In this document: piece by piece, positions 4,441-30,432 of the stretch | Layout of the letters: the number at the start of each line of letters is the position of its first letter | Position numbering within the stretch: position 1 is the first letter of the stretch | From: Anaeromyxobacter dehalogenans 2CP-C | Lineage (GTDB): Bacteria; Myxococcota; Myxococcia; Myxococcales; Anaeromyxobacteraceae | Assembly (NCBI RefSeq): GCF_000013385.1 | Contig: NC_007760.1 | Location: forward strand, 248,001 to 312,000 | Direction of reading: 5' to 3' | DNA length: 64,000 nt | Notes under the pieces: generated by a model | Told to the model about the DNA's origin: nothing | The model's input: only the letters and a program-made list of their open reading frames with translations | Database searches by the model: none | Position numbers and translations under genes: made by a program

Positions 4441-5376
4441 GTGATCTGGCCGGCGATCGCGCGCGTGCTCGCAGGGTTCACCGCGGTGGTGATGTGCGCC
4501 GCCGCGGGGGCGGCCGCCGCGGGCCCGCTCCTGGTCCCGGGGCGGATGGGCTACAACGCGCTCCCCGCGCTCCGCAACGTGGACCCGGTGATCGGGGACC
4601 GGACCGAGCTGGAGCTGTCCGCCACCGCCCAGCTCGCAGGGCTCGGCTCGGAGGACGTCGCGGGGACCCCGTACGTGCGGCTCACCGTGCCGTTCCGCGA
4701 GGTGGCCGCGCTGGAGCTGGACGGCACCCCGTTCGAGCTGTTCCGGACCTCGGCCGCGACGGAGGCGCGGCTCGGCGCGCGCGTGCGCTCGGGCGCGTCC
4801 CCGGGCGACCTCCGCGCCGGCGCGCGGTTCCTGGTGCTCGACGAGCGGGGGTGGCGCCCGGCGCTGGGGCTGCGCCTGGTGGTGAAGTCCACCTCGGGCA
4901 AGGATCGCGGCGCGCGCCGCTTCACCAACGCGCCGGGCTACGTCTTCGACCTGCTCGGCGGCAAGGACCTCGCCGCGGCGGGTCCGGTCCGCCTGCGCGC
5001 GCTCGCGAAGGTCGGCTTCCTCGCCTGGCAGGTCGCGGACGGCCGCCAGGACGACGCGCTCGACTACGGGGCGACCCTGCGCGCCGGGTTCGCGAGCGGC
5101 GTCGCGATCTCGGCAGAGTGGCGCGGCTACGCCGGCTGGCGCGGCGACGACCGCCCGATGGTGCTGGGCCTCACCGCCGACGTGCCGGCCGGCCAGCGGG
5201 TGCTGCTGCGCGCCTCCGTCGATCGCGGGCTCAGCGCGGACGCGCCGCCGCTCGACGTGCGGCTCGGCGTGGTCCTGTTCCTCGACGCGCCCATGCGGCG
5301 CGACCGAACGGCCGCGCCGGCCGACCCGCGCCTCGCCGCGGGCCCGCGTCCGAGGCGGCAGCCCGGACCGCGGTGA
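4441..5376 (+). CDS. Secreted, probably outer-membrane beta-structured protein of unknown function
   Basis: A 311-residue protein. The start is GTG at 4441, chosen because it opens a good signal peptide (VIWPAIARVLAGFTAVVMCAAAGAAAAG); longer in-frame starts run into the preceding gene. The mature part begins with GRMGYNALPALRNVDP and then alternates short hydrophobic strands with charged turns (for example YVRLTVPFREVAALELDG and GVAISAEWRGYAGW), ending in the LRASVDRGLSADAPPLDVRLGVVLFLD pattern of an outer-membrane barrel, followed by a Pro/Arg-rich tail. I recognise no named family. The stop codon abuts that of the convergent gene at 5377. Co-location with polysaccharide genes might suggest envelope or export work, but this is a guess. 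Confidence 0.75.
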   Translation: MIWPAIARVLAGFTAVVMCAAAGAAAAGPLLVPGRMGYNALPALRNVDPVIGDRTELELSATAQLAGLGSEDVAGTPYVRLTVPFREVAALELDGTPFELFRTSAATEARLGARVRSGASPGDLRAGARFLVLDERGWRPALGLRLVVKSTSGKDRGARRFTNAPGYVFDLLGGKDLAAAGPVRLRALAKVGFLAWQVADGRQDDALDYGATLRAGFASGVAISAEWRGYAGWRGDDRPMVLGLTADVPAGQRVLLRASVDRGLSADAPPLDVRLGVVLFLDAPMRRDRTAAPADPRLAAGPRPRRQPGPR

Positions 5377-6546
5377 TCACTCCTCTGCGTGCCGCCCGTC
5401 GGTGACGCGGACCTCGGCCGCGACGCCGGCGTGGTCGCTCGGCCACAGCCCGCCCACCCGCTCCGCGGCGGTCTCGCCCACCACCTCGGCGCTCCACGGC
5501 TGCGCCGGCCCGCGCACGAGCACGTAGTCGATGCGCGTGGACAGGTCGGCGAACCCGGGGTCGCCGGGGCCGGTCCGCAGGTCCTCGGGGAAGCAGCAGG
5601 TGAGCCCGGCGGCGTCGCCGTTCACGGCCGCCCACACGTCGCGGAACCCTGCGCCGGCCAGCACCGCTTCACCCTCCGTGCCGGGCTCCGAGTTGAGGTC
5701 GCCGACCAGCACCACCGGCCGCGTCTCGGCGGCGAGGGCGGCGGCGAGCTCCGCCGCCTGCGCGGTGCGCACGCCCGCGTGGTACGCCTCGAGGTGCGTC
5801 GAGACGAAGCGCAGCCACTCGCCACGGTACTTCGCGTCCACCGACACCCAGCCCCGCTTCACCTGCACGGCGTTCCCGAGCACGTTGACCGGCAGGAGCG
5901 TGGCGTACACGCCGCCGCCGGGCAGCGCGGTGGTGAGATCGCTCCGCGCCAGGATCACGCCGCGGTCGGTCATGCGGACGTCCTGCCCCGTCGCCACCGG
6001 CGCCTCGAAGTCGAACAGCGTCACCTCGGCCGCGACCACGTAGCGGAGGTCGCGCGCGGCGAGCGCGTCGAGGAGGTCCTGCACGTAGTCGTACGCCACG
6101 GTGGTGGCGGGCGTCGTGCCGCCCGCGAGGAAGTCGCCCGGGTCCTGCACGCGCCACAGGTACGCCTCCTGGAGGCCGACGAGGCCGGGCCGGGTGGCGG
6201 CGAGCTCGTCGGCGATCGCCTCGGCGCGCAGGTGGAAGTCGTTCGCCCGCACGGTGGCCCAGACCGCGGTGGTCGCGGCGACGAACGCCTCGGGCGTGGC
6301 GGCGGCCATGACCGGCCCCAGGTCCGCCCCGAGGTACAGGTTCCGGGTGGTCACGCCGAGGATCTTCTTGCCTCCTGCCATGGAATGGGGATCCATGCCG
6401 GCGCCCCGCGCGCTGGGTGAACCGGACGCGCTGGGCGCACGGACGGCGTCGGAGGCCGGGGCGGAGGGAGCGTCGCCGTTGCTGCAGGCGCCGAGGGCCA
6501 GCGGGGACAGGGCGAGCGCGAGGACGGCCAGGCGCGTGCGGGACAT
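5377..6546 (-). CDS. Endonuclease/exonuclease/phosphatase-family lipoprotein
   Basis: A 389-residue exported protein with a lipobox (LSPLALGAC, Cys20) and the DNase I-like metal-dependent phosphoesterase fold. Core motifs are TRNLYLGADLG at the start of the domain, GLQEAYLWR (metal-binding Glu), STHLEAYH, VVLVGDLNSEPG (the Asp-Asn pair) and the terminal WPSDHAGVAAEV with the catalytic Asp-His. Substrates in this superfamily range from nucleic acids to phospholipids and inositol phosphates, and nothing here decides among them. The ATG at 6546 has an excellent ribosome site, GGAGGTGACC. It is convergent with the preceding gene, the two stops touching, so transcription of each may run into the other. 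Confidence 0.92.
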   Translation of the reverse strand: MSRTRLAVLALALSPLALGACSNGDAPSAPASDAVRAPSASGSPSARGAGMDPHSMAGGKKILGVTTRNLYLGADLGPVMAAATPEAFVAATTAVWATVRANDFHLRAEAIADELAATRPGLVGLQEAYLWRVQDPGDFLAGGTTPATTVAYDYVQDLLDALAARDLRYVVAAEVTLFDFEAPVATGQDVRMTDRGVILARSDLTTALPGGGVYATLLPVNVLGNAVQVKRGWVSVDAKYRGEWLRFVSTHLEAYHAGVRTAQAAELAAALAAETRPVVLVGDLNSEPGTEGEAVLAGAGFRDVWAAVNGDAAGLTCCFPEDLRTGPGDPGFADLSTRIDYVLVRGPAQPWSAEVVGETAAERVGGLWPSDHAGVAAEVRVTDGRHAEE

Positions 6547-6790
6547 GGTCACCTCCGGCGTGGGAGCGGCTGGGGCAAGGCGTGTGGACGCAGGTGGGAG
6601 GGTAGCACCCCCGGTGCGCTCGCCCGACGCGCCGAGCGGGCCGCCCCGGACGGAGTGCCGTCGCGGGTGTAGCGCCGGCCCCCGGCCCGCCCCGGCGCGG
6701 TAGCCCAAGCAGGGCCCAGCGCCTGCGAGGGCCGCAGCGTAACTCGTTCCGGGCCCAGTTCGCCCGGCAGGTCGTCGGAAGGGAAACGCG

Positions 6791-17798: not shown

Positions 17799-17890
17799 TC
17801 CGCCGGTCCGGGACCCATGGGTCACGGGGGGTGGGCTTGCGCGCCGCCCCTCCGCGCTGCGAAAACCAGCCGACCACCTCGGGAGCCCAC

Positions 17891-20449
17891 ATGACGCGCC
17901 TCCGCACGCCCGCCGCGCTCGCAACGTTCCTCGCCGTCCTCGCCTGCGGCGGCGGCGGTGGCGACTCGCAGCCGCTGCCCACCACCTTCACGCTGTCCGG
18001 CCACATCGCGGCCACCGCGGGGCAGGACGTGGACGGCGACGTCGCCGATCCGGGCGCGCCGCGCACGCCGAACGACTCGGCCGCACAGGCGCAGCAGCTC
18101 GCGCCGGTGACCACGCTGGGCGGGTACGCCAGCGCGGGCACGGATTCCCAGGACTGGTACAAGGCCACGCTGGAGGCGGGCCAGACGGTGGTGCTGGACG
18201 TGGCCGACGCCGCGGCCTCGCTCGAGCTCTGCCTGCTCGCCTCCGACGGCGTGAGCGTCGTGAGCTGCGCGATCGGCGGCGCGAACCAGGTCATCCCCGT
18301 CGCGGCGGCCGGCCAGCACTACGTGCGGGTCACCGCCGCCGCGGGCAGCTCCAACTACGCGCTCACCCTGGGCGTGAACGGCGCCGGGGCGGGCGCCGGC
18401 TCGGCCCCGCACCTGGCGCTGCCGTTCGTCCCCGGCGAGCTGGTGGTCCGCTTCCGCGACGACGCGCTCGAGGTGGCCGCGGCCGGCGACCTCCCGCGGC
18501 GCGCCGCCGCGCTCGGGCTCACCGCGCTGGCGGGCGCCCGCGGCCGCGCCGCGCTGCTCTCCATGTCCGGCCCCGAGGGCCGCGCCCGGGCGCTCGCCGC
18601 GCTCGGCGTCGAGCCGCTCGCGCCCGGCGCGCTGGGCGCCGGCGCCGACCCGGTGATGGCCGAGAAGTGGGACACGCTCCGCGCCATCGCCGCGCTGCGC
18701 CGCCGGGCGGACGTGGAGAGCGCCGATCCCAACTTCCTGTTCCAGCCGGCGCTGGTCCCGACCGACACGTACTACAAGTACCAGTGGCACTACCCGCTCA
18801 TCTCGCTGCCGCAGGCCTGGGACCTCGAGACCGGCGATCCCGGCGTGGTGGTGGCGGTGGTGGACACCGGCGTGTTCCTCGCCCACCCCGATCTCTCCGG
18901 CCAGCTCGTCACCGGCTACGACTTCATCCGCGATCCCGCCATGGCGAACGACGGCAACGGGATCGACCCGAACCCCGACGACCCGGGCGACGCGGCCACC
19001 CTCGGGGGCAGCTCCTGGCACGGCACGCACGTGGCCGGTACGGTCGCCGCCGCCCTGAACGACAGCGGCGTGGTGGGCGTCGCGCCCGGCGCCCGGGTGA
19101 TGCCGCTCCGCGCCCTCGGCGTCGGCGGCGGGACCTCCTACGACATCATGCAGGCGGTGCGCTACGCGGCCGGCCTCGCGAACGACTCCGGGACGGTCCC
19201 GGCCACCCGCGCCGCGGTGATCAACCTGAGCCTCGGGTGCCAGGGCTGCTTCTCCTCCACCGAGCAGGCGGTCTACACGTCCGCGCGCAACGCGGGCGTC
19301 ATCGTGGTCGCCGCCGCGGGCAACGAGGCGTCGTCGGCGCCCGGCTACCCGGCCGCGTACGCCGGCGTGCTGTCGGTGAGCGCGGTGGACATGAAGGGCG
19401 CGAAGGCGCCGTACTCGAACACCGGCAGCACCGTGGATCTCGCCGCGCCGGGCGGCAACACCGCGGTGGACCTCGACGGCAACGGCTACGCCGACGGCGT
19501 GCTCTCCACGCTGGTGAAGGACACCACCGGCACCCGCGAGCCCATCTACGCCTTCTACCAGGGCACCTCCATGGCCGCGCCGCACGTGGCGGGCGTGATG
19601 GCACTCATGAAGTCGGCCTGCCCCGGCCTCACGCCGGACGGCGTGGACGCGCGCCTCCAGGCCGGGCTGCTCACCCGCGACCTGGGGACGCCCGGTCGCG
19701 ACGACACCTTCGGCTGGGGGCTGGTGGACGCGCTGAAGGCGGTCCAGTCCTGCGGCGCCGCGCTGCCGCCCTCGCTCTCCGTCACCCCGGGGCGACTCGA
19801 CTTCGCGTCCGCCGACACGGTCCTCCAGCTGCAGGCGGCGAGGGTCGGCGAGGGCGCGCTCACGGTCACCTCGGTCTCGGACGACGCCGCCTGGCTCACG
19901 GTCGCCGCGCCCGGCGTGGACGCGAGCGGCCTCGGCGCGTACACCGCCACGGTGGATCGGACCGGCCTCGCCGACGGCCGCTACACCGCCCGGATCACCT
20001 TCACGCCGTCGGTGGGCGCGCCGGTGATCATCCCGGTGACGCTGCAGGTGGGCGCCGCCGCGGCGGCCGGGGACGCCGGCTTCCTGTACGCGCTGCTCGT
20101 CCGCGACGGCGTGAACGGCCCGGAGCTCGTGAAGCAGTGGGCCGGCGCCGCCTCGGGCGGCAGCTACGCGTTCCGCTTCGACGGCGTGTCGGCCGGCACG
20201 TACTACCTCGTGGCCGGGAGCGACATGAACGACGACGGCTACATCTGCGACGCGGGCGAGGCCTGCGGCGCCTGGCCGACGCTGGGGGTCCTGACGCCGC
20301 TCGGCGCGAGCGGGCCGCGCTCCGACCTCGACTTCAGCGTCGCGTTCGACCCGGCCGTCGCGCCGGTCGGCGCGGCCGCGGGGACGCCGGGGCGCGCGCC
20401 GGGCTTCGCGCGGCAGCCGGCGTCGAAGGGCGTGGCGGGGCTGCGCTAG
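17891..20449 (+). CDS. Subtilisin-like serine protease (S8 family) lipoprotein
   Basis: An 852-residue exported protease. A lipobox-like signal ends in LAVLACGGGGG, followed by a PPC-type beta domain (residues about 55-165: DSQDWYKATLEAGQTVVLDV). A propeptide-like segment (FVPGELVVRFRDD) precedes the catalytic domain with Asp325 in VAVVDTGVFLAHPDLSG, His377 in WHGTHVAGTVAA and Ser560 in GTSMAAPHVAGVMAL; Asn in AAAGNEASSAPGYPA completes the oxyanion hole. C-terminal parts resemble a BACON/Ig-like beta domain (LSVTPGRLDFASAD) and a last domain with DMNDDGYICD, which looks like a Ca-binding loop. The ATG at 17891 has GGGAG upstream. It is likely a surface or secreted lytic protease. Confidence 0.93.
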   Translation: MTRLRTPAALATFLAVLACGGGGGDSQPLPTTFTLSGHIAATAGQDVDGDVADPGAPRTPNDSAAQAQQLAPVTTLGGYASAGTDSQDWYKATLEAGQTVVLDVADAAASLELCLLASDGVSVVSCAIGGANQVIPVAAAGQHYVRVTAAAGSSNYALTLGVNGAGAGAGSAPHLALPFVPGELVVRFRDDALEVAAAGDLPRRAAALGLTALAGARGRAALLSMSGPEGRARALAALGVEPLAPGALGAGADPVMAEKWDTLRAIAALRRRADVESADPNFLFQPALVPTDTYYKYQWHYPLISLPQAWDLETGDPGVVVAVVDTGVFLAHPDLSGQLVTGYDFIRDPAMANDGNGIDPNPDDPGDAATLGGSSWHGTHVAGTVAAALNDSGVVGVAPGARVMPLRALGVGGGTSYDIMQAVRYAAGLANDSGTVPATRAAVINLSLGCQGCFSSTEQAVYTSARNAGVIVVAAAGNEASSAPGYPAAYAGVLSVSAVDMKGAKAPYSNTGSTVDLAAPGGNTAVDLDGNGYADGVLSTLVKDTTGTREPIYAFYQGTSMAAPHVAGVMALMKSACPGLTPDGVDARLQAGLLTRDLGTPGRDDTFGWGLVDALKAVQSCGAALPPSLSVTPGRLDFASADTVLQLQAARVGEGALTVTSVSDDAAWLTVAAPGVDASGLGAYTATVDRTGLADGRYTARITFTPSVGAPVIIPVTLQVGAAAAAGDAGFLYALLVRDGVNGPELVKQWAGAASGGSYAFRFDGVSAGTYYLVAGSDMNDDGYICDAGEACGAWPTLGVLTPLGASGPRSDLDFSVAFDPAVAPVGAAAGTPGRAPGFARQPASKGVAGLR

Positions 20450-22945: not shown

Positions 22946-25900
22946 ATGCTCGCACGCCCCGCCGCCCTGCTCGCGCTCTGCCTCGCCTCGACGGGGTCCG
23001 CCCGCGCGCCGTCCCCGCTCCCGCCGCCCACCGGCCTCGACCCGGACGCGGAGCGGGCCGCCGCGGCCGTGGCGGCGCTCGACCGCGAGCGGCGCGGCCC
23101 CCGCGGCCTCGCCGCGCTCGCCGAGCTGGACGCGCTCGCCGACGACCTGCCCGAGCTCGCCCACGTCGCCGCCGCCTACGCGCGCGCCGCCGACGATCGC
23201 GAGGCGCACCCGGAGGTCCGCGCGCTGGCGCGCTTCCGGCTCGCCGAGGTGGAGCGCGCCCGGGGCAACCTGCAGAAGGAGGCGGCCAGCCTGCGCCGGC
23301 TGGGGTTCGTCGAGCGCTGGCGGGTGATCGGGCCGTTCGACGACGAGGGGAAGCGCGGCCTCGCCGAGGCGTTCCCGCCCGAGAAGGCCATCGACCTCGC
23401 CGCCCGCCACCCGGGAAAGGCGCGCGAGGTGGCCTGGCGCGCGCTGCCGGAGGACGCGGTGGTGGACGGCTTCGTGCACCTGGGCGCGGCGCTCCGCCCG
23501 GCGCGCGAGGTGGTGGCGTACGCGCTCGCCGAGGTCGAGGCGCCCCGCGAGCTCGAGGCCCGGCTCTGGCTCGGCGCGAGCGGCGCGGCGCGGGTGTGGG
23601 TGAACGGCGCGGCCGTGCTCACCGACGCGGACTACCACCCGGCCCGGCTCGATCAGCGCGGCGTGGTGGTGACGCTCCGGCGCGGCGCGAACCGGATCCT
23701 GGTGAAGCTCTGCCACCAGGACGGCCGCATGGGGTTCTACCTCCGGCTCGCCGACGCGCGCGGCGAGGGGCTGGAGCTCGCAGCGGCCGATCCGCGGGGC
23801 GCCGCGCTGCGGGAGGTCCCCGCCCCCGGGCCCGCGGCGCCGATCGCGCCCGCGGTGGGCGCGCTCGAACAGCGCGCGAAGGCGGCCCGCGGCGCGCGCG
23901 CCGAGGCGGAGGCCCGGCTCGAGCTGGCGCGGGTGCTGGCGGCGCGGCAGGGCGGCGACGTGCAGGAGCGGCGGGCGGCGGCCGAGGCGCGGCGCGCCGC
24001 GCTGCTCGCGCCCGGCTGGGCGGACGCGCAGCTCGAGGCGGCGGCGCTCGACGAGGACCACGGGCGCCGGCGGCAGCGCATCGAGGCCGCGCTCGCGGCG
24101 GCGCCGGAGGACCCGAGGGCGCTGCGGGCGCTCGGACAGGAGGAGCTGGACCAGGGCCGGCCGCAGGCGGCGGCCCGGCTGCTGGAGCGGGCGGTGCGGG
24201 CCGCGCCGGGCTGGGCGGCGCCGCGGGTGGAGCTCGCCGACGCGCTCTCCCGCGCCGGCCTGGAGGCGCGCGGCGCGCTGCTCGCGGAGGCGACCGCGGC
24301 GGCGTTCGCCACCGTGCCCTCCGCGGTGCGGGCCGCGGCGCGGTCCGCGCGGCGCCTCGGGCGCACCGAGGAGGCGGCGGCGCGCAGCCGCACGCTGGTG
24401 GCGCTCCGGTTCGACGACGCGCAGACGCGCGCCGCGCTGGCGCAGATCCTGGCCGACCGCGGCGACGTGGCCGGCGCGCAGGCGCTGCTCGAGGAGGCGC
24501 TGCGGCTCGACCCCTCCGACGTGTACCAGCGGCTGCGGCTCGCCGACCTGCTCGCGGCGAGCGGCCGCGGCGAGGAGGCGGAGCGCGCCTACGCCGCGGC
24601 GCTCGCGCTCGCGCCGGACGAGCCGGACGCCTGGGAGCGGCGCGGCCGCGCGCGGCTCTCGCAGGGCCGGGTGAAGGACGCGCAGGCCGACCTGCAGCGC
24701 GCGCTCGAGCTCCGGCCGCAGAGCCCGGAGCTGAAGCTGCTGGTGCGCAGCCTCGAGCCGGCGCGCGAGCCGTTCGAGCGGCCGTACCTGCTCGACGCGC
24801 GCGAGCTGGCCGCGGCCGCCCCCGCGGCGGAGCCGGACGAGGACGCCCTGGTGCTGGGCGAGCTGAAGGTCACCCGCGTGCTGCCCTCGGGGCTCTCCTC
24901 CACGTACACGCAGTCGGTGGTGAAGGTGCTGACGCCCCGCGGCGCCGACCAGGCGCGCCGGCAGACCGTGTCCTGGGCGCCGGACCGGCAGGAGGTGCGC
25001 GTGGAGCGCGCGCGCATCCTGAAGCCGGACGGGACGGTGATCGAGGCGCACGACGAGTCCGAGCGGAGCGCGAGCGAGCCCTGGTACCGGCTCTACTACG
25101 ACCTCACCGCCCGCACGCTGTCGTTCCCGGCGCTCGCGCCCGGCGACGTGCTGGAGGTGGCCTGGCGGCTCGAGGACGTCGCCGGGGAGAACCTGCTCTC
25201 CGACTACTTCGGCGACCTCACGTTCGTGGACGACACCACCCGCAAGGCGCGCTTCGACTACGTGCTGCTCGTCCCGGCGGCGCGCGCCATCCACGCGAAC
25301 GCGCCGGCCGGGATCGCGCACGCGCAGCGCGCGCTCCCGGGAGACGTGGTGGAGCACCGCTGGTCCGCGCGCGACCTGCCCCGCGTCGTGCCCGAGCCGG
25401 GCATGCCGGGCTGGAGCGAGGTGTCGCGCCACGTGCACGTCTCCACGTACGCGAGCTGGGACCAGGTGGCCCGCTTCTACTGGGGGCTGGTGAAGGACGC
25501 GGTGCGCCCCACCCCCGAGGTGCGCGCCGAGGCGGAGCGGATCGCGGCCGAGGTGCTGCGCGCCCGGCGCGGCGACGGCACGCGCGTGGCGCGGGCGCAG
25601 GCCGCGGCGAGCACGCTGCCGCCGCCCGGCGGCTGGGACCTCGAGACGCAGCGCGCGCTCACCCGCGCCGTCTACGACTTCGTGGTCTCGCAGACCCGCT
25701 ACGTGGGGCTGGAGTTCGGCATCCACGGCTACAAGCCGTACCGGGTGGACCAGGTGCTGCAGCGCCGCTTCGGCGACTGCAAGGACAAGGCGAGCCTGCT
25801 GCGCGCCATGCTGGAGTCGATCGGGATCGACGCGCGCCTGGTGCTGCTGCGCATGCGGCGGCTGGGCCGGCTCCCCGAGGCGCCGGCCTCCCTCGCCGTG

Positions 25901-26716
25901 TTCAACCACGCCATCGTGTACGTGCCCGCGCTCGACCTGTGGCTGGACGGCACCGCCGCCTACTCCGGCTCGGGCGACCTGCCCGGCGAGGACCGTGGCG
26001 CCACGGTGCTGGTGGTGAATCCGGACGGCAAGCCGCGCTTCGCCACCGTGCCGGAGGCGCTCCCCGAGCAGAACCGCGGCGAGACCCGCTTCGACGTGGC
26101 GATCGCCGCGGACGGTGCGGCCTCGGTCCGCGGCGCCTGGCGCGTGAGCGGCGCGGAGGCGCCGACCTACCGCCGCGCCTACCTGGTGGAGGAGCAGCGG
26201 CGCGCCCAGCTGGAGCAGACCTTCAACCGCAGCTTCCCCGGCGTGCGCGTCGCCTCGGTGACGGCCTCCGATCTCACCCGCCTCGAGGACGACGTCACCA
26301 TGCAGTTCGCGCTGGAGATCCCCCGCTTCGCCCGGCCCGACGGCGCGGGCCTGCGCTTCTCCCCGTTCGGCGCCACGCGCGGCTGGGGCGAGAGCTGGGC
26401 CGCGCTCTCCTCGCGCTGGCACGACCTCGACCTGGGCAGCCCCACCGAGACGGTGTTCACCTACCGGTACACGCTGCCGGCCGGCTGGCGGATCGCCGAG
26501 CTGCCCGACGGCGACGCCGCCAGGACCCCCTACGCCAGCTTCGACGTGCGCTACCGCCGCGACGGCGCGGCGCTGGTCGCCGAGGCCCGCGTGCGGCTGG
26601 AGAAGGGGCGCATCCCGGCCCGCGACTACCCCGCGTTCCGCGAGCTGACCGGGCGCATCGACCGCGCCTTCGCGCGCAAGGTGCGCATCGTCCCCGCCCA
26701 GGAGGCCGCCCGATGA
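22946..26716 (+). CDS. Exported TPR / DUF3857 / transglutaminase-like protein, catalytic triad intact
   Basis: A 1,256-residue envelope protein with a signal peptide (MLARPAALLALCLASTGSARA). Residues about 120-290 form a beta-rich domain (FVERWRVIGPFDDEGKRGLAEAF, ARVWVNGAAVL, RRGANRILVKLCHQDGRMGFYLRLAD) like the carbohydrate-binding or PA14-like region found in such proteins. Tetratricopeptide-like repeats run to about residue 610. A DUF3857 domain follows (GELKVTRVLPSGLSSTYTQS, RARILKPDGTVIEAHD). The transglutaminase-like domain keeps Cys945 (RFGDCKDKASLL), His988 (FNHAIVY) and Asp1001 (LWLDGTAAYSG). Its real reaction is unknown; families of this kind may crosslink or hydrolyse peptide bonds. 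ATG start at 22946; its stop overlaps the next gene's ATG. Confidence 0.88.
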   Translation: MLARPAALLALCLASTGSARAPSPLPPPTGLDPDAERAAAAVAALDRERRGPRGLAALAELDALADDLPELAHVAAAYARAADDREAHPEVRALARFRLAEVERARGNLQKEAASLRRLGFVERWRVIGPFDDEGKRGLAEAFPPEKAIDLAARHPGKAREVAWRALPEDAVVDGFVHLGAALRPAREVVAYALAEVEAPRELEARLWLGASGAARVWVNGAAVLTDADYHPARLDQRGVVVTLRRGANRILVKLCHQDGRMGFYLRLADARGEGLELAAADPRGAALREVPAPGPAAPIAPAVGALEQRAKAARGARAEAEARLELARVLAARQGGDVQERRAAAEARRAALLAPGWADAQLEAAALDEDHGRRRQRIEAALAAAPEDPRALRALGQEELDQGRPQAAARLLERAVRAAPGWAAPRVELADALSRAGLEARGALLAEATAAAFATVPSAVRAAARSARRLGRTEEAAARSRTLVALRFDDAQTRAALAQILADRGDVAGAQALLEEALRLDPSDVYQRLRLADLLAASGRGEEAERAYAAALALAPDEPDAWERRGRARLSQGRVKDAQADLQRALELRPQSPELKLLVRSLEPAREPFERPYLLDARELAAAAPAAEPDEDALVLGELKVTRVLPSGLSSTYTQSVVKVLTPRGADQARRQTVSWAPDRQEVRVERARILKPDGTVIEAHDESERSASEPWYRLYYDLTARTLSFPALAPGDVLEVAWRLEDVAGENLLSDYFGDLTFVDDTTRKARFDYVLLVPAARAIHANAPAGIAHAQRALPGDVVEHRWSARDLPRVVPEPGMPGWSEVSRHVHVSTYASWDQVARFYWGLVKDAVRPTPEVRAEAERIAAEVLRARRGDGTRVARAQAAASTLPPPGGWDLETQRALTRAVYDFVVSQTRYVGLEFGIHGYKPYRVDQVLQRRFGDCKDKASLLRAMLESIGIDARLVLLRMRRLGRLPEAPASLAVFNHAIVYVPALDLWLDGTAAYSGSGDLPGEDRGATVLVVNPDGKPRFATVPEALPEQNRGETRFDVAIAADGAASVRGAWRVSGAEAPTYRRAYLVEEQRRAQLEQTFNRSFPGVRVASVTASDLTRLEDDVTMQFALEIPRFARPDGAGLRFSPFGATRGWGESWAALSSRWHDLDLGSPTETVFTYRYTLPAGWRIAELPDGDAARTPYASFDVRYRRDGAALVAEARVRLEKGRIPARDYPAFRELTGRIDRAFARKVRIVPAQEAAR

Positions 26717-29700
26717 GCCGCGCCGCGCGCCGAGGGCCGCCGCGGATCCCGGGGGTCGCCGCCGCGCTGGCGGCGCTCGCGCTCGCCTGCGCCGCCCCGC
26801 GCGCCGAGCAGGCCGAGCCCGGGCGCGCCACGCGCGAGGGCCTGGCCGCGCTGGAGCAGAACGACGTCGCCCGCGCCGAGGCGCGGCTCGGCCCGGCCTC
26901 GCGGGTCCGGGACCCCTGGGCGCGGTTCGGCGCGTCGCTGCTCGCGCGGCGCGCGCTCGACGGCGAGGCGGAGGCGCAGCGGCTGCTCGCGACCGTGGAG
27001 GCCGGGCCGGACGAGCCCATCGCCCTGGTCGCGCTGCGGCGGCTCTCCGAGCTGGCCGAGCGGGGGCCGGCGCTGGCGGCCCAGGTGGACGCGGGCGTCC
27101 TGCGGCTCGGGGCGGGCGGCCGGCTGCACGGGCTCGCCGCCTACCGGGCGCGGGTGGCGCGGGTGACCGCGGCCGAGGTGCTCGGCGATCACGACGCCGC
27201 CGCCCAGGCCCGCCGCGAGAACGGCGCGGTCTCGGCCTGGTCCATCGCGGGGCCGTTCGCGGCGCACCACGCGCTCGACTTCGGCGCGCCCATCCCGCCC
27301 GATCGCGGCGAGCTGCCCGCGTCGGTGCCGGGCCGCGCCGGCGGGCCCGCGGTCCCGACCCGCGCGCTCCCCGCGCCCGACGGCACCGTCGCGCTCGACG
27401 GCGAGCCGGCGGCCGGCGACCTGTTCGCGCTCGCCACCGACGTGGACCTGGCCCGCGGCGGCCGCTACCTCGTGACGCTCGGGACGCAGCTCTCGGCCCG
27501 CCTGGTCGTGGACGGCGCGCTGGTGCACGAGCGGCGCGCGTTCGCGGCCTGGCTCCCGGGGCTGGTGCACCTGCCGGTGGAGCTCGCGCGCGGCCGGCAC
27601 CGGGTGGTGCTGGAGGTGACCCGCGGCGCGCCGAGCACCGGGATCCACCTCGCCTTCGCGCGCGCCGACGGGGCCGCCTCCGACGCCCGCTTCGCGGCGC
27701 CGCCGCCGGGCCCGCCGCCCGCGCCGCCGGTGGCGCGGCCCCGCGCCGAGCCGGCGCTGACCCCGCGGGCGCTGGCGCTCGCGCTCGAGCCGGACGTCGG
27801 GGCGGCCACCGCGCGCCTGCTGGCGGCGCGCGACGCCCTGGTGAACGACCGCGAGGCGGCCAAGGTGCTCCTCGCCGAGGCGCTGGCCCTGCGGCCCGAG
27901 GCGGCGGCGCTCCGCGCGGCGCGCGCGGACGCGACCGCCGACGACCCCACGCTCGACGAGCAGGTGGCGCGGGCGCGCGCCGAGGCCGACCTGCGGGAGG
28001 CGCTGCGCCTCGACCCGGGCGACGCCGAGGCGCGCGCGGAGCTGGCGGCGCTCCTGCGCGGCGCCGAGCGCCACGACGACGCCGAGGCGGTGCTGGCCGG
28101 CCTCGCCCCGGAGCCGGCCGCGCGGCCCGCCGGGATCGCCGCCCGGGCGCGCGCGGCGCAGGCCCGCGGGCTGCTGGAGCGCGCCGAGGGGCTGGCCGCG
28201 GAGGCGCTCCGCTCGGCGGGGAGCTGCGACGCGGCCGATCTCGCGTACGAGCTGGCGGTCCGGCGCGGCGCCGCCGCCCGCGAGGACGAGGCCATGGCGG
28301 TGCTCTCGCGCTGCCGCGGCGGCCGCGAGCGCCTGGCGGCCCACCTGCGCCGCCGGGGCGACCCGGTGGCGGAGCGCGCCGCGCTCGACCCGGTGGTGCG
28401 CGCCCGGCCCTGGGCGGTCGAGCCGGGCCTGACCCGCGCCGACGCGCTCGTCGCCGCCGGCGAGACCCGCCGCGCGACCGCGGCGCTGGAGGCCATCGCC
28501 GCGATCTGGCCGCGCGACGCGCGCGTGCAGCGGCGGCTCGCCGACGCGCGCGAGCTGTCCGGGGACGCGCCCGGCGCCCGCGCCGCGCGCGAGCGGGCGC
28601 TGGCGCTCGACCCGGCCGACCTGCAGCTCCGGCGCGCGCTCGCCCTGGAGGACGGGACCGAGGTGCTCGCCGACGTGGCGGCGGACCCGCGCGCGGCCAT
28701 CCGCGCCTACGAGGCCGCCGGCCGGCGCAACGGCGCGTCCACCGTGATGGTGCTCGACGCCGCCTACGTGGACGTCCACCCGGGCGGCGCCGCCACCGAG
28801 CGCACGCAGCAGATCGTCCACGTGCTCGACCAGCAGGGCGTGGAGCAGTTCGGCGAGGTCACCGTGCCCGCCGGCGCGGACGTGCTCGCGCTCCGCACCG
28901 TCAAGCCCGACGGGACCACGCTGGAGCCGGAGCGGGCGGGGAGCGCCAAGGGCTCGGTCTCGCTCGCCGGCCTCGCGCCCGGCGACTACGTGGAGCTCGA
29001 CTACGTCCGCGCGGTGCAGTCGCCGCCCGGGCTGGAGGGCTACGCCGCCGATCCCTTCTACTTCCAGGTGCCCGGCAGCCGGCTGTTCCGGTCGCTCTAC
29101 GTGGTGCGCGCGCCGGCGGGCCTCGGCCTCGAGGCCGACGCGCACGGCATGCCGGCGCCCGCGCCGGTGCGGGACGGCGGGCGCGAGGTGCTCCGGGCCG
29201 AGCGGCGCGACGTGCCCGCGATCGTCCCGGAGCCGGACGCGCCCGGCGGCGCCGAGTACCTGCCGTTCCTGTCGGTGGGGACCGGGGGCGGGCGCGCGGC
29301 GCTGCAGCGCGCCGTCGCCGACGCGCTGCCGGAGCGCACCCGCGCCACCGCCGAGCTCCGCGCGTTCGCGCGCGAGATCGCGGCCGGCGGCGGCGGGCCG
29401 GCCCAGCTGGCGCGCGCCGCCTACGCCCGCGTGGCGCAGGCGGTGCTCGGCTCGGGCGGCGGCATGGGCGAGGACGCGAGCGTGGCGCTGTCGCGCGGCC
29501 GGGGCAGCCGGCTGGCGGTGCTGAAGGCGGTGCTCGCCGAGCTCGGCATCGAGTCGCGCGTCGCGCTGGTGCGGCCGTACAGCGCCGACCCGGCGCCCTA
29601 CCGGTTCCCGGCGCTCGGCCTCTACGCCGCGCCGCTGCTCCGCGTGCGCGCGGGCGGCGCGACGTTCTGGCTCGATCCCACCGCCCGCCACGCGCCGTTC

Positions 29701-30432
29701 GGCGCGTTCCCGGCGGTGCTGGCCGGGTGCGAGGCGCTCGTCCTTCCCGAGGCGGGCGAGGCGCCGGAGGTGGACCGGACGCCGGAGAGCCCGCTCGTGG
29801 AGGAGGGCCGGGAGACCACCGCGCGCCTCGTGCTCGCGGCCGACGGCTCCGCCGAGGCGAGCGGAACCGATCGCTACCTCGGGTACGGGGGCGCGGAGCT
29901 GAAGGCCGCGCTCGAGCGCCTCGACGCCTCGCAGCGCCGCCAGGCGGTGGAGGGGATGCTGGGGCGGGTGCTGCGCGGCGTGACCGTGACCGACGTCGCG
30001 TTCGCGGGCGAGGACGATCCCGCGGCGCCGCTCGAGATCCGCTGGAAGGCGCGGGTGCCGGAGCTGGCCCGGGCGGTGGAGGGCGGGCTGGTCCTGGACC
30101 AGCCGCTCTTCCCGGCGCGGCTCGGCGCGCGCCTGGTGCGCGTCGCCTCCCGCCAGACGCCGCTCCTGCTGGCCACGCCCGAGCGGCAGGTGCAGCGGAT
30201 CGAGGTGGTGCCGCCGCGCGGCCTCGGCGTGACCGCCGACGCGCCCCGCACCGCGTCGTCGCCGTCGGGCAGCTTCACGCGCACGGAGCGGGTGGACGGG
30301 GGAACGCTCGTCCGCGACGAGCGCCTGGAGCTGCGCCGCGGACGCATCGCGCCGGAGCACCATGCCGAGCTGGCCGCGTTCGCGGCCGCGGTGGACCAGG
30401 CGCAGGAGCGGCCGCTGCTCCTCGCGCGCTGA
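26713..30432 (+). CDS. Exported TPR / DUF3857 paralogue with degenerate transglutaminase domain
   Basis: A 1,239-residue paralogue of the preceding gene, overlapping it by ATGA, so the two are surely cotranslated. Its signal peptide ends in LALACAAPRAE, a possible lipobox. The order of parts is the same: WSIAGPFAAHHALDFGAPI and RLVVDGALVHERR in the beta-rich part, TPR-like helices (EALALRPEAAALRAARADA, LREALRLDPGDAEARAELAALL), DUF3857 (NGASTVMVLDAAYVDVHPGGAATERTQQIVHVLDQQG) and the transglutaminase-like end. Aligned without gaps against its neighbour, the Cys position is Arg930 and the His position is Leu975, while the Asp stays as Asp988 in FWLDPT. It should therefore be catalytically dead, perhaps a partner or scaffold of the active copy. 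Confidence 0.87.
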   Translation: MSRAARRGPPRIPGVAAALAALALACAAPRAEQAEPGRATREGLAALEQNDVARAEARLGPASRVRDPWARFGASLLARRALDGEAEAQRLLATVEAGPDEPIALVALRRLSELAERGPALAAQVDAGVLRLGAGGRLHGLAAYRARVARVTAAEVLGDHDAAAQARRENGAVSAWSIAGPFAAHHALDFGAPIPPDRGELPASVPGRAGGPAVPTRALPAPDGTVALDGEPAAGDLFALATDVDLARGGRYLVTLGTQLSARLVVDGALVHERRAFAAWLPGLVHLPVELARGRHRVVLEVTRGAPSTGIHLAFARADGAASDARFAAPPPGPPPAPPVARPRAEPALTPRALALALEPDVGAATARLLAARDALVNDREAAKVLLAEALALRPEAAALRAARADATADDPTLDEQVARARAEADLREALRLDPGDAEARAELAALLRGAERHDDAEAVLAGLAPEPAARPAGIAARARAAQARGLLERAEGLAAEALRSAGSCDAADLAYELAVRRGAAAREDEAMAVLSRCRGGRERLAAHLRRRGDPVAERAALDPVVRARPWAVEPGLTRADALVAAGETRRATAALEAIAAIWPRDARVQRRLADARELSGDAPGARAARERALALDPADLQLRRALALEDGTEVLADVAADPRAAIRAYEAAGRRNGASTVMVLDAAYVDVHPGGAATERTQQIVHVLDQQGVEQFGEVTVPAGADVLALRTVKPDGTTLEPERAGSAKGSVSLAGLAPGDYVELDYVRAVQSPPGLEGYAADPFYFQVPGSRLFRSLYVVRAPAGLGLEADAHGMPAPAPVRDGGREVLRAERRDVPAIVPEPDAPGGAEYLPFLSVGTGGGRAALQRAVADALPERTRATAELRAFAREIAAGGGGPAQLARAAYARVAQAVLGSGGGMGEDASVALSRGRGSRLAVLKAVLAELGIESRVALVRPYSADPAPYRFPALGLYAAPLLRVRAGGATFWLDPTARHAPFGAFPAVLAGCEALVLPEAGEAPEVDRTPESPLVEEGRETTARLVLAADGSAEASGTDRYLGYGGAELKAALERLDASQRRQAVEGMLGRVLRGVTVTDVAFAGEDDPAAPLEIRWKARVPELARAVEGGLVLDQPLFPARLGARLVRVASRQTPLLLATPERQVQRIEVVPPRGLGVTADAPRTASSPSGSFTRTERVDGGTLVRDERLELRRGRIAPEHHAELAAFAAAVDQAQERPLLLAR

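Follow-up and report, generated by a model that had tools for sequence, protein, structure and literature searches.

The window analysed here is a 64,000-nucleotide stretch of Anaeromyxobacter dehalogenans 2CP-C (G000:C1:248001-312000; the genome G000 is one contig of 5,013,479 bp), and its forward strand carries two large tandem genes whose products, P1 and P2, both contain a DUF3857 domain. P1 (22946..26716, + strand, 1256 aa) is a DUF3857/transglutaminase (TG) protein with a catalytic-looking active site and an ordinary N-terminal signal peptide, and P2 (26713..30432, +, 1239 aa) is a Cys-less pseudo-transglutaminase and predicted lipoprotein. The P2 start and the P1 stop share an ATGA (26713..26716, +); the coordinates, both open reading frames (ORFs) and the overlap agree with an earlier reading of this DNA, hereafter the initial annotation. 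P2 likewise begins within the P1 stop codon, in an NTGA overlap, at 15/15 readable junctions of Anaeromyxobacteraceae. P2 has its own Shine-Dalgarno sequence, an AGGAGG read directly within P1 (26700..26705, +), 7 nt upstream of the P2 ATG. A scan of the locus for promoters and terminators returned nothing informative.

Both proteins had been assigned signal peptides, which holds for P1, while the signal of P2 looks to be of the lipoprotein type. The N-termini of P1 proteins resemble ordinary cleavable signals and lack a lipobox pattern, whereas in P2 the sequence A-L-A-C26 fits a lipobox, with Cys26 (codon 26788..26790, +) as the predicted lipidation site. Most P2 homologues of the phylum have a lipobox, including those encoded away from P1. 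These calls are pattern readings with a permissive lipobox rather than the output of a trained predictor.

The order of parts in the AlphaFold models is the same in P1 and P2, namely N-terminal helices, a beta-sandwich, a tetratricopeptide repeat (TPR) superhelix, DUF3857, a TG-like core and a C-terminal beta/helix region. The models are confident (P2, pLDDT 91.2 and pTM 0.88; P1, pLDDT 90.3 and pTM 0.64). In P1, the parts comprise a jelly-roll-like beta-sandwich (residues ~126-281, 23321..23788, +; DSSP of model m3cb6f72c6f41), the TPR superhelix (residues ~303-602, 23852..24751, +; Pfam TPRs, the model and PDB matches), DUF3857 (residues 648-813, 24887..25384, +) and the TG-like core (residues ~904-1010, 25655..25975, +). 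P2 has a beta-sandwich (residues ~175-328, 27235..27696, +; model m38286bf7775f), a TPR-like superhelix (residues ~351-646, 27763..28650, +) and DUF3857 (residues 692-837, 28786..29223, +). The beta-rich N-terminal region and the TPR helices proposed initially for both proteins are thus recovered, the TPRs by Pfam and model in P1 and by model in P2, where the Pfam matches are below threshold. No named sugar-binding fold was seen for the beta region among the PDB matches listed, which TPR proteins and 3kd4 took up, so that the region was barely tested in this respect.

Membership in DUF3857 (PF12969) is supported above the curated cut-off of 24.6 bits in both P1 (105.7 bits) and P2 (37.1 bits). 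P1 also passes Transglut_core (PF01841, 34.0 bits at residues 904-967, cut-off 23), whereas P2 has no Pfam TG match at E<=1, so that the transglutaminase-like end annotated in both is confirmed by Pfam and fold in P1 and by fold in P2. The best PDB match to the C-terminal DUF3857-TG half of both proteins is 3kd4 (BDI_1141 of Parabacteroides distasonis, 'putative protease'), with Z 31.1 over 493 residues (rmsd 3.1) for P1 and Z 19.3 over 465 residues (rmsd 3.9) for P2. The 3kd4 structure differs from both in that it comprises 505 residues without a long TPR and beta-sandwich part, at 15-17% identity. Searching the PDB sequences with this half of P2 gave no match. P1 and P2 are paralogues, which align in BLASTP with an E of 1e-28 (27% identity over 626 columns) and more weakly at the N-terminus.

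The Cys-His-Asp triad of the TG fold is present in P1 as Cys945 (codon 25778..25780, +), His988 (25907..25909, +) and Asp1001 (25946..25948, +), as annotated initially. Cys945 is the presumed nucleophile; it opens a helix in the model and lies in a GDCKDK motif. The triad is incomplete in P2. A three-residue gap in the MAFFT alignment faces D-C-K of P1, leaving a pseudo-active-site loop G929-R-G-S-R933 (29497..29511, +), and in the P2 model the helix opened by C945 in P1 begins one turn later, at R933, the equivalent of K948 of P1. The position of the catalytic His is occupied in P2 by Ala973 (29629..29631, +), located at the start of the beta strand that matches the His988 strand of P1, and the catalytic Asp is retained as Asp988 (29674..29676, +). 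Of the residues named initially as P2 equivalents, Asp988 is correct, whereas Arg930 and Leu975 arise from an ungapped or shifted alignment; the Cys is deleted rather than replaced, and His988 aligns with Ala973. No other Cys of P2 aligns with the nucleophile site, and structure-aware alignment restored no Cys-His pair.

The contrast between the two active sites is maintained across the phylum. All aligned P1 homologues have C, H and D (41/41 in one alignment), whereas Cys is absent by the same deletion in 35/35 sampled P2 homologues, and Asp is kept in 31/35 and His in 8/35. The P2 proteins unlinked to P1 show this deletion too. Because the Cys is absent from every sampled homologue, the triad loss in P2 is far beyond chance. 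Within Anaeromyxobacteraceae, each P1 has the C/H/D residues, and L-S-R-G-R-G-[SN]-R stands there invariantly in P2, with His at the equivalent site in 4/15 and Asp in 14/15. P2 is a pseudo-enzyme, in which the fold of the enzyme family is kept, the Cys is lost in 35/35 homologues and dN/dS is 0.13.

The loss of Cys, and often of His, could be read as the decay of a copy of P1. However, dN/dS relative to the nearest species is 0.13 for each of P1 and P2, and it is <1 in every domain and pair tried, which argues that P2 is under purifying selection and is not decaying. In addition, the long P2 ORF is intact in nearly all genomes, with L163 as the exception, and one loss is common to the whole phylum. 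Selection and conservation together rule out a decayed pseudogene, and we assign this explanation a negligible probability. The exception is a metagenome-assembled genome (MAG) in which P2 is split into two reading frames (L163:2713-4728 and 4732-6672), possibly by a frameshift or an assembly error. We also considered the P2 TG domain as the most constrained part of the protein, which was true of one close pair (dN/dS 0.016) and not of four others, and the idea was dropped.

A tree of the DUF3857-TG core placed the P1 proteins in one clade (100/98) and the P2 proteins in another (100/100), with broadly parallel branching. Approximately unbiased (AU) tests gave p 0.14 for a single origin of all Cys-less proteins and p 0.33 for P1 and P2 as sister groups, values that decide neither question. 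In a Myxococcaceae MAG, P1 is directly preceded by another P1-like ORF (L136:3070-6831, +), which fell into a different DUF3857 clade.

The initial annotation proposed a search of other genomes for adjacent pairs with the same triad loss, and the pair proved to be conserved phylum-wide. All readable Anaeromyxobacteraceae loci have the adjacent pair with the same 4-base overlap, and several further families of the order also have P2 directly after P1. Adjacent pairs were also detected in another order of the same class (L178) and, outside the class, in families f11 (8/8), f13, f16, f23 and f24, and adjacency therefore extends across several classes of Myxococcota. A PF12969 search recovered P1 homologues in nearly all genomes of the order, while P2 was absent from within 7 kb of P1 in Myxococcaceae and certain other families. 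A loss of P2 in Myxococcaceae, suggested by the loci downstream of P1, was overturned by a whole-genome search with the P2 core (A5). By that search and PF12969, both genes are present in 57/59 genomes of the order and both are missing from two (G010 and G017, 92 and 95% complete); none of the 59 genomes has only one of them, and P2 of G006 is truncated where its contig ends. In several of these genomes the genes are about 30-150 kb apart, for example 33 kb in G063, 73 kb in G073 and 152 kb in G028.

Where the genes are linked, P1 has gpmI on its upstream side and P2 has hemW on its downstream side. In family f6, whose genes are split, gpmI is still beside P1 (L076) and hemW still beside P2 (L196, L200), and therefore an ancestral cluster was broken between P1 and P2. 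Unlinked P2 genes, including those of Myxococcaceae, immediately follow a Ser/Thr protein kinase gene (L191-L195, L199, L202), preceded in several cases by a further conserved gene, putatively of GAF type. The kinase gene and the unlinked P2 may share an operon.

The fixed stoichiometry that the initial annotation derived from the ATGA overlap is rejected. P2 has its own AGGAGG, and Myxococcaceae and other families have split the genes yet retain both, so the overlap is no proof of a fixed ratio. The same split would fit an independent history, in which P1 and P2 are two core envelope genes kept for separate reasons and their adjacency is a legacy of duplication, and so would the position of P2 after a Ser/Thr kinase gene in Myxococcaceae. 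We consider such independence very unlikely, as adjacency has survived class-level divergence in most other families and no genome in the order sample carries a single gene.

The conserved catalytic/pseudo-catalytic envelope pair proposed at the outset is thus strongly supported, by the phylum-wide pairing and the unrestored P2 site; neither of the two outcomes that the initial annotation named as refuting it occurred. Our preferred explanation, to which we give a probability of about 50%, is that P1 and P2 act as one unit composed of an exported TG-fold cysteine enzyme and its non-catalytic, membrane-anchored lipoprotein paralogue. P1 would be a peptidase, amidase or acyl transferase built on a TPR and beta-sandwich scaffold, and it would perform the chemistry. 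P2 would be an ancient paralogue of P1 that became a membrane-anchored lipoprotein and lost its nucleophile. It may hold P1, the substrate of P1 or both at the membrane, probably the outer membrane, and the paired TPR, DUF3857 and dead TG domains would provide the binding surfaces. As the initial annotation proposed, the pair might modify or remodel surface proteins. Common descent, the missing Cys of P2, the kept triad of P1 and the joint occurrence of the genes are established, whereas the complex, the anchoring role, the activity of P1, its substrate and the bond that it attacks, and the outer-membrane site are the parts that we infer.

Several points weigh against this explanation. The genes are unlinked in Myxococcaceae, and cotranslation is therefore not needed. 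Their universal co-occurrence could mean no more than that the core genome of the phylum includes both. Further, P2 of one genus group (4 loci) has no lipobox in the predicted N-termini, and membrane anchoring is thus not universal.

A shared compartment and obligate co-occurrence are equally compatible with P2 as a substrate or clamp, which P1 cleaves or cross-links, or with sequential action of both proteins on a single envelope polymer that involves no stable complex. Periplasmic TG-fold enzymes can indeed have one dedicated protein substrate, as LapG has in LapA. However, P2 is structurally paralogous to P1 over its full length, dead TG fold included, which would be needless in a mere substrate, and we regard these relationships as unlikely. 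A purely structural role for both proteins, with the TG fold as a binding module and the P1 triad serving structure or ligand binding, appears more doubtful still. It would agree with the lack of known activity for DUF3857 proteins in the papers found, and with YGTPLEI in place of GDCKDK in 3KD4, the sole solved DUF3857 structure matched here. On the other hand, P1 keeps C, H and D without exception phylum-wide, with a GDCKDK motif, as catalysis predicts and unlike in P2.

The design of a Cys-bearing and a Cys-less member recurs in a separate family of shorter DUF3857 proteins. Tandem DUF3857-TG pairs in other Myxococcota (L183-L185, L187-L190) have the Cys in the first gene and not in the second. 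Similar to P1 and P2, their genes are adjacent, with an NTGA overlap in three pairs, and the second members have lipoboxes. The short pairs differ in size (about 670-820 aa), in the absence of a long TPR part and in a first member that is also a lipoprotein in most cases. In the second members the Cys is substituted by N, P or A rather than deleted as in P2, a difference that favours separate Cys losses; His and Asp are still present in most of them. Judged from these sequences, the order of an apparently active DUF3857 gene and then a Cys-less one recurs, the Cys having been deleted in one family and substituted in the other.

The 3kd4 protein seems to lack Cys at the site of P1 Cys945, as P2 does; a weak phmmer alignment (E 0.78) places its YGTPLEI opposite FGDCKDK of P1. 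We tentatively suggest, at lower confidence than for the P1-P2 unit itself, that DUF3857 proteins may in general be two-subunit envelope enzymes, composed of a catalytic TG-fold protein and a Cys-less lipoprotein paralogue, either ancestrally or through repeated evolution, with 3KD4 as the dead half of such an enzyme.

Pairs in which a paralogue without catalytic residues is kept alongside an active one are a known theme, and P1 and P2 resemble them in this respect; in the papers searched, no such pair of TG-like or DUF3857 proteins was found. The most familiar pseudo-enzymes are those of eukaryotic signalling. Periplasmic TG-like cysteine proteases of the LapG type belong to the same superfamily and compartment as P1, but are small, single-domain proteins without DUF3857 or TPRs, and we know of no dead paralogue partner for them. 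Such proteases are listed beside 3KD4, itself cited as a member of the TG-like superfamily (PMC4866520). TgpA (PA2873) of Pseudomonas aeruginosa has, like P1, a periplasmic transglutaminase-like domain with the triad, and shows transglutaminase activity in vitro (PMC3507681). Unlike P1, TgpA is an inner-membrane protein with DUF3488, and the part of that source considered here reports no DUF3857 and mentions no pseudo-enzyme paralogue (PMC3507681). Among open papers, DUF3857 itself was encountered in a single one, where it features solely as a lolA neighbour in Xanthomonas (PMC6341742). No described pair of the P1-P2 type was found in the literature searched, with most subscription-journal papers and preprints outside the search; the same statement in the initial annotation stands to this extent.

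The P1-P2 pair is real and conserved, and was not found described: a putative enzyme and its dead paralogue partner in a family without an assigned function. It suggests a two-protein envelope system kept phylum-wide, with no function in the searched literature, in which one partner is a dead lipoprotein enzyme. The role of DUF3857 proteins thereby becomes testable in tractable bacteria, and a structure deposited as a putative protease (3KD4) is suggested to have lost its nucleophile. A conserved pseudo-enzyme of the bacterial envelope would also be a useful example.

Two more DUF3857-TG proteins with intact triad motifs are encoded elsewhere in G000 (L005 and L006; G000:C1:579201-579695 and 4133442-4133930), and in both DUF3857 is N-terminal with TPR-like sequence after it. 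Within the window, the product of a long ORF at 17831-20449 has a lipoprotein-like N-terminus and contains sequence of a subtilisin-like protease (HGTHVAGT...GTSMAAPHVAG).

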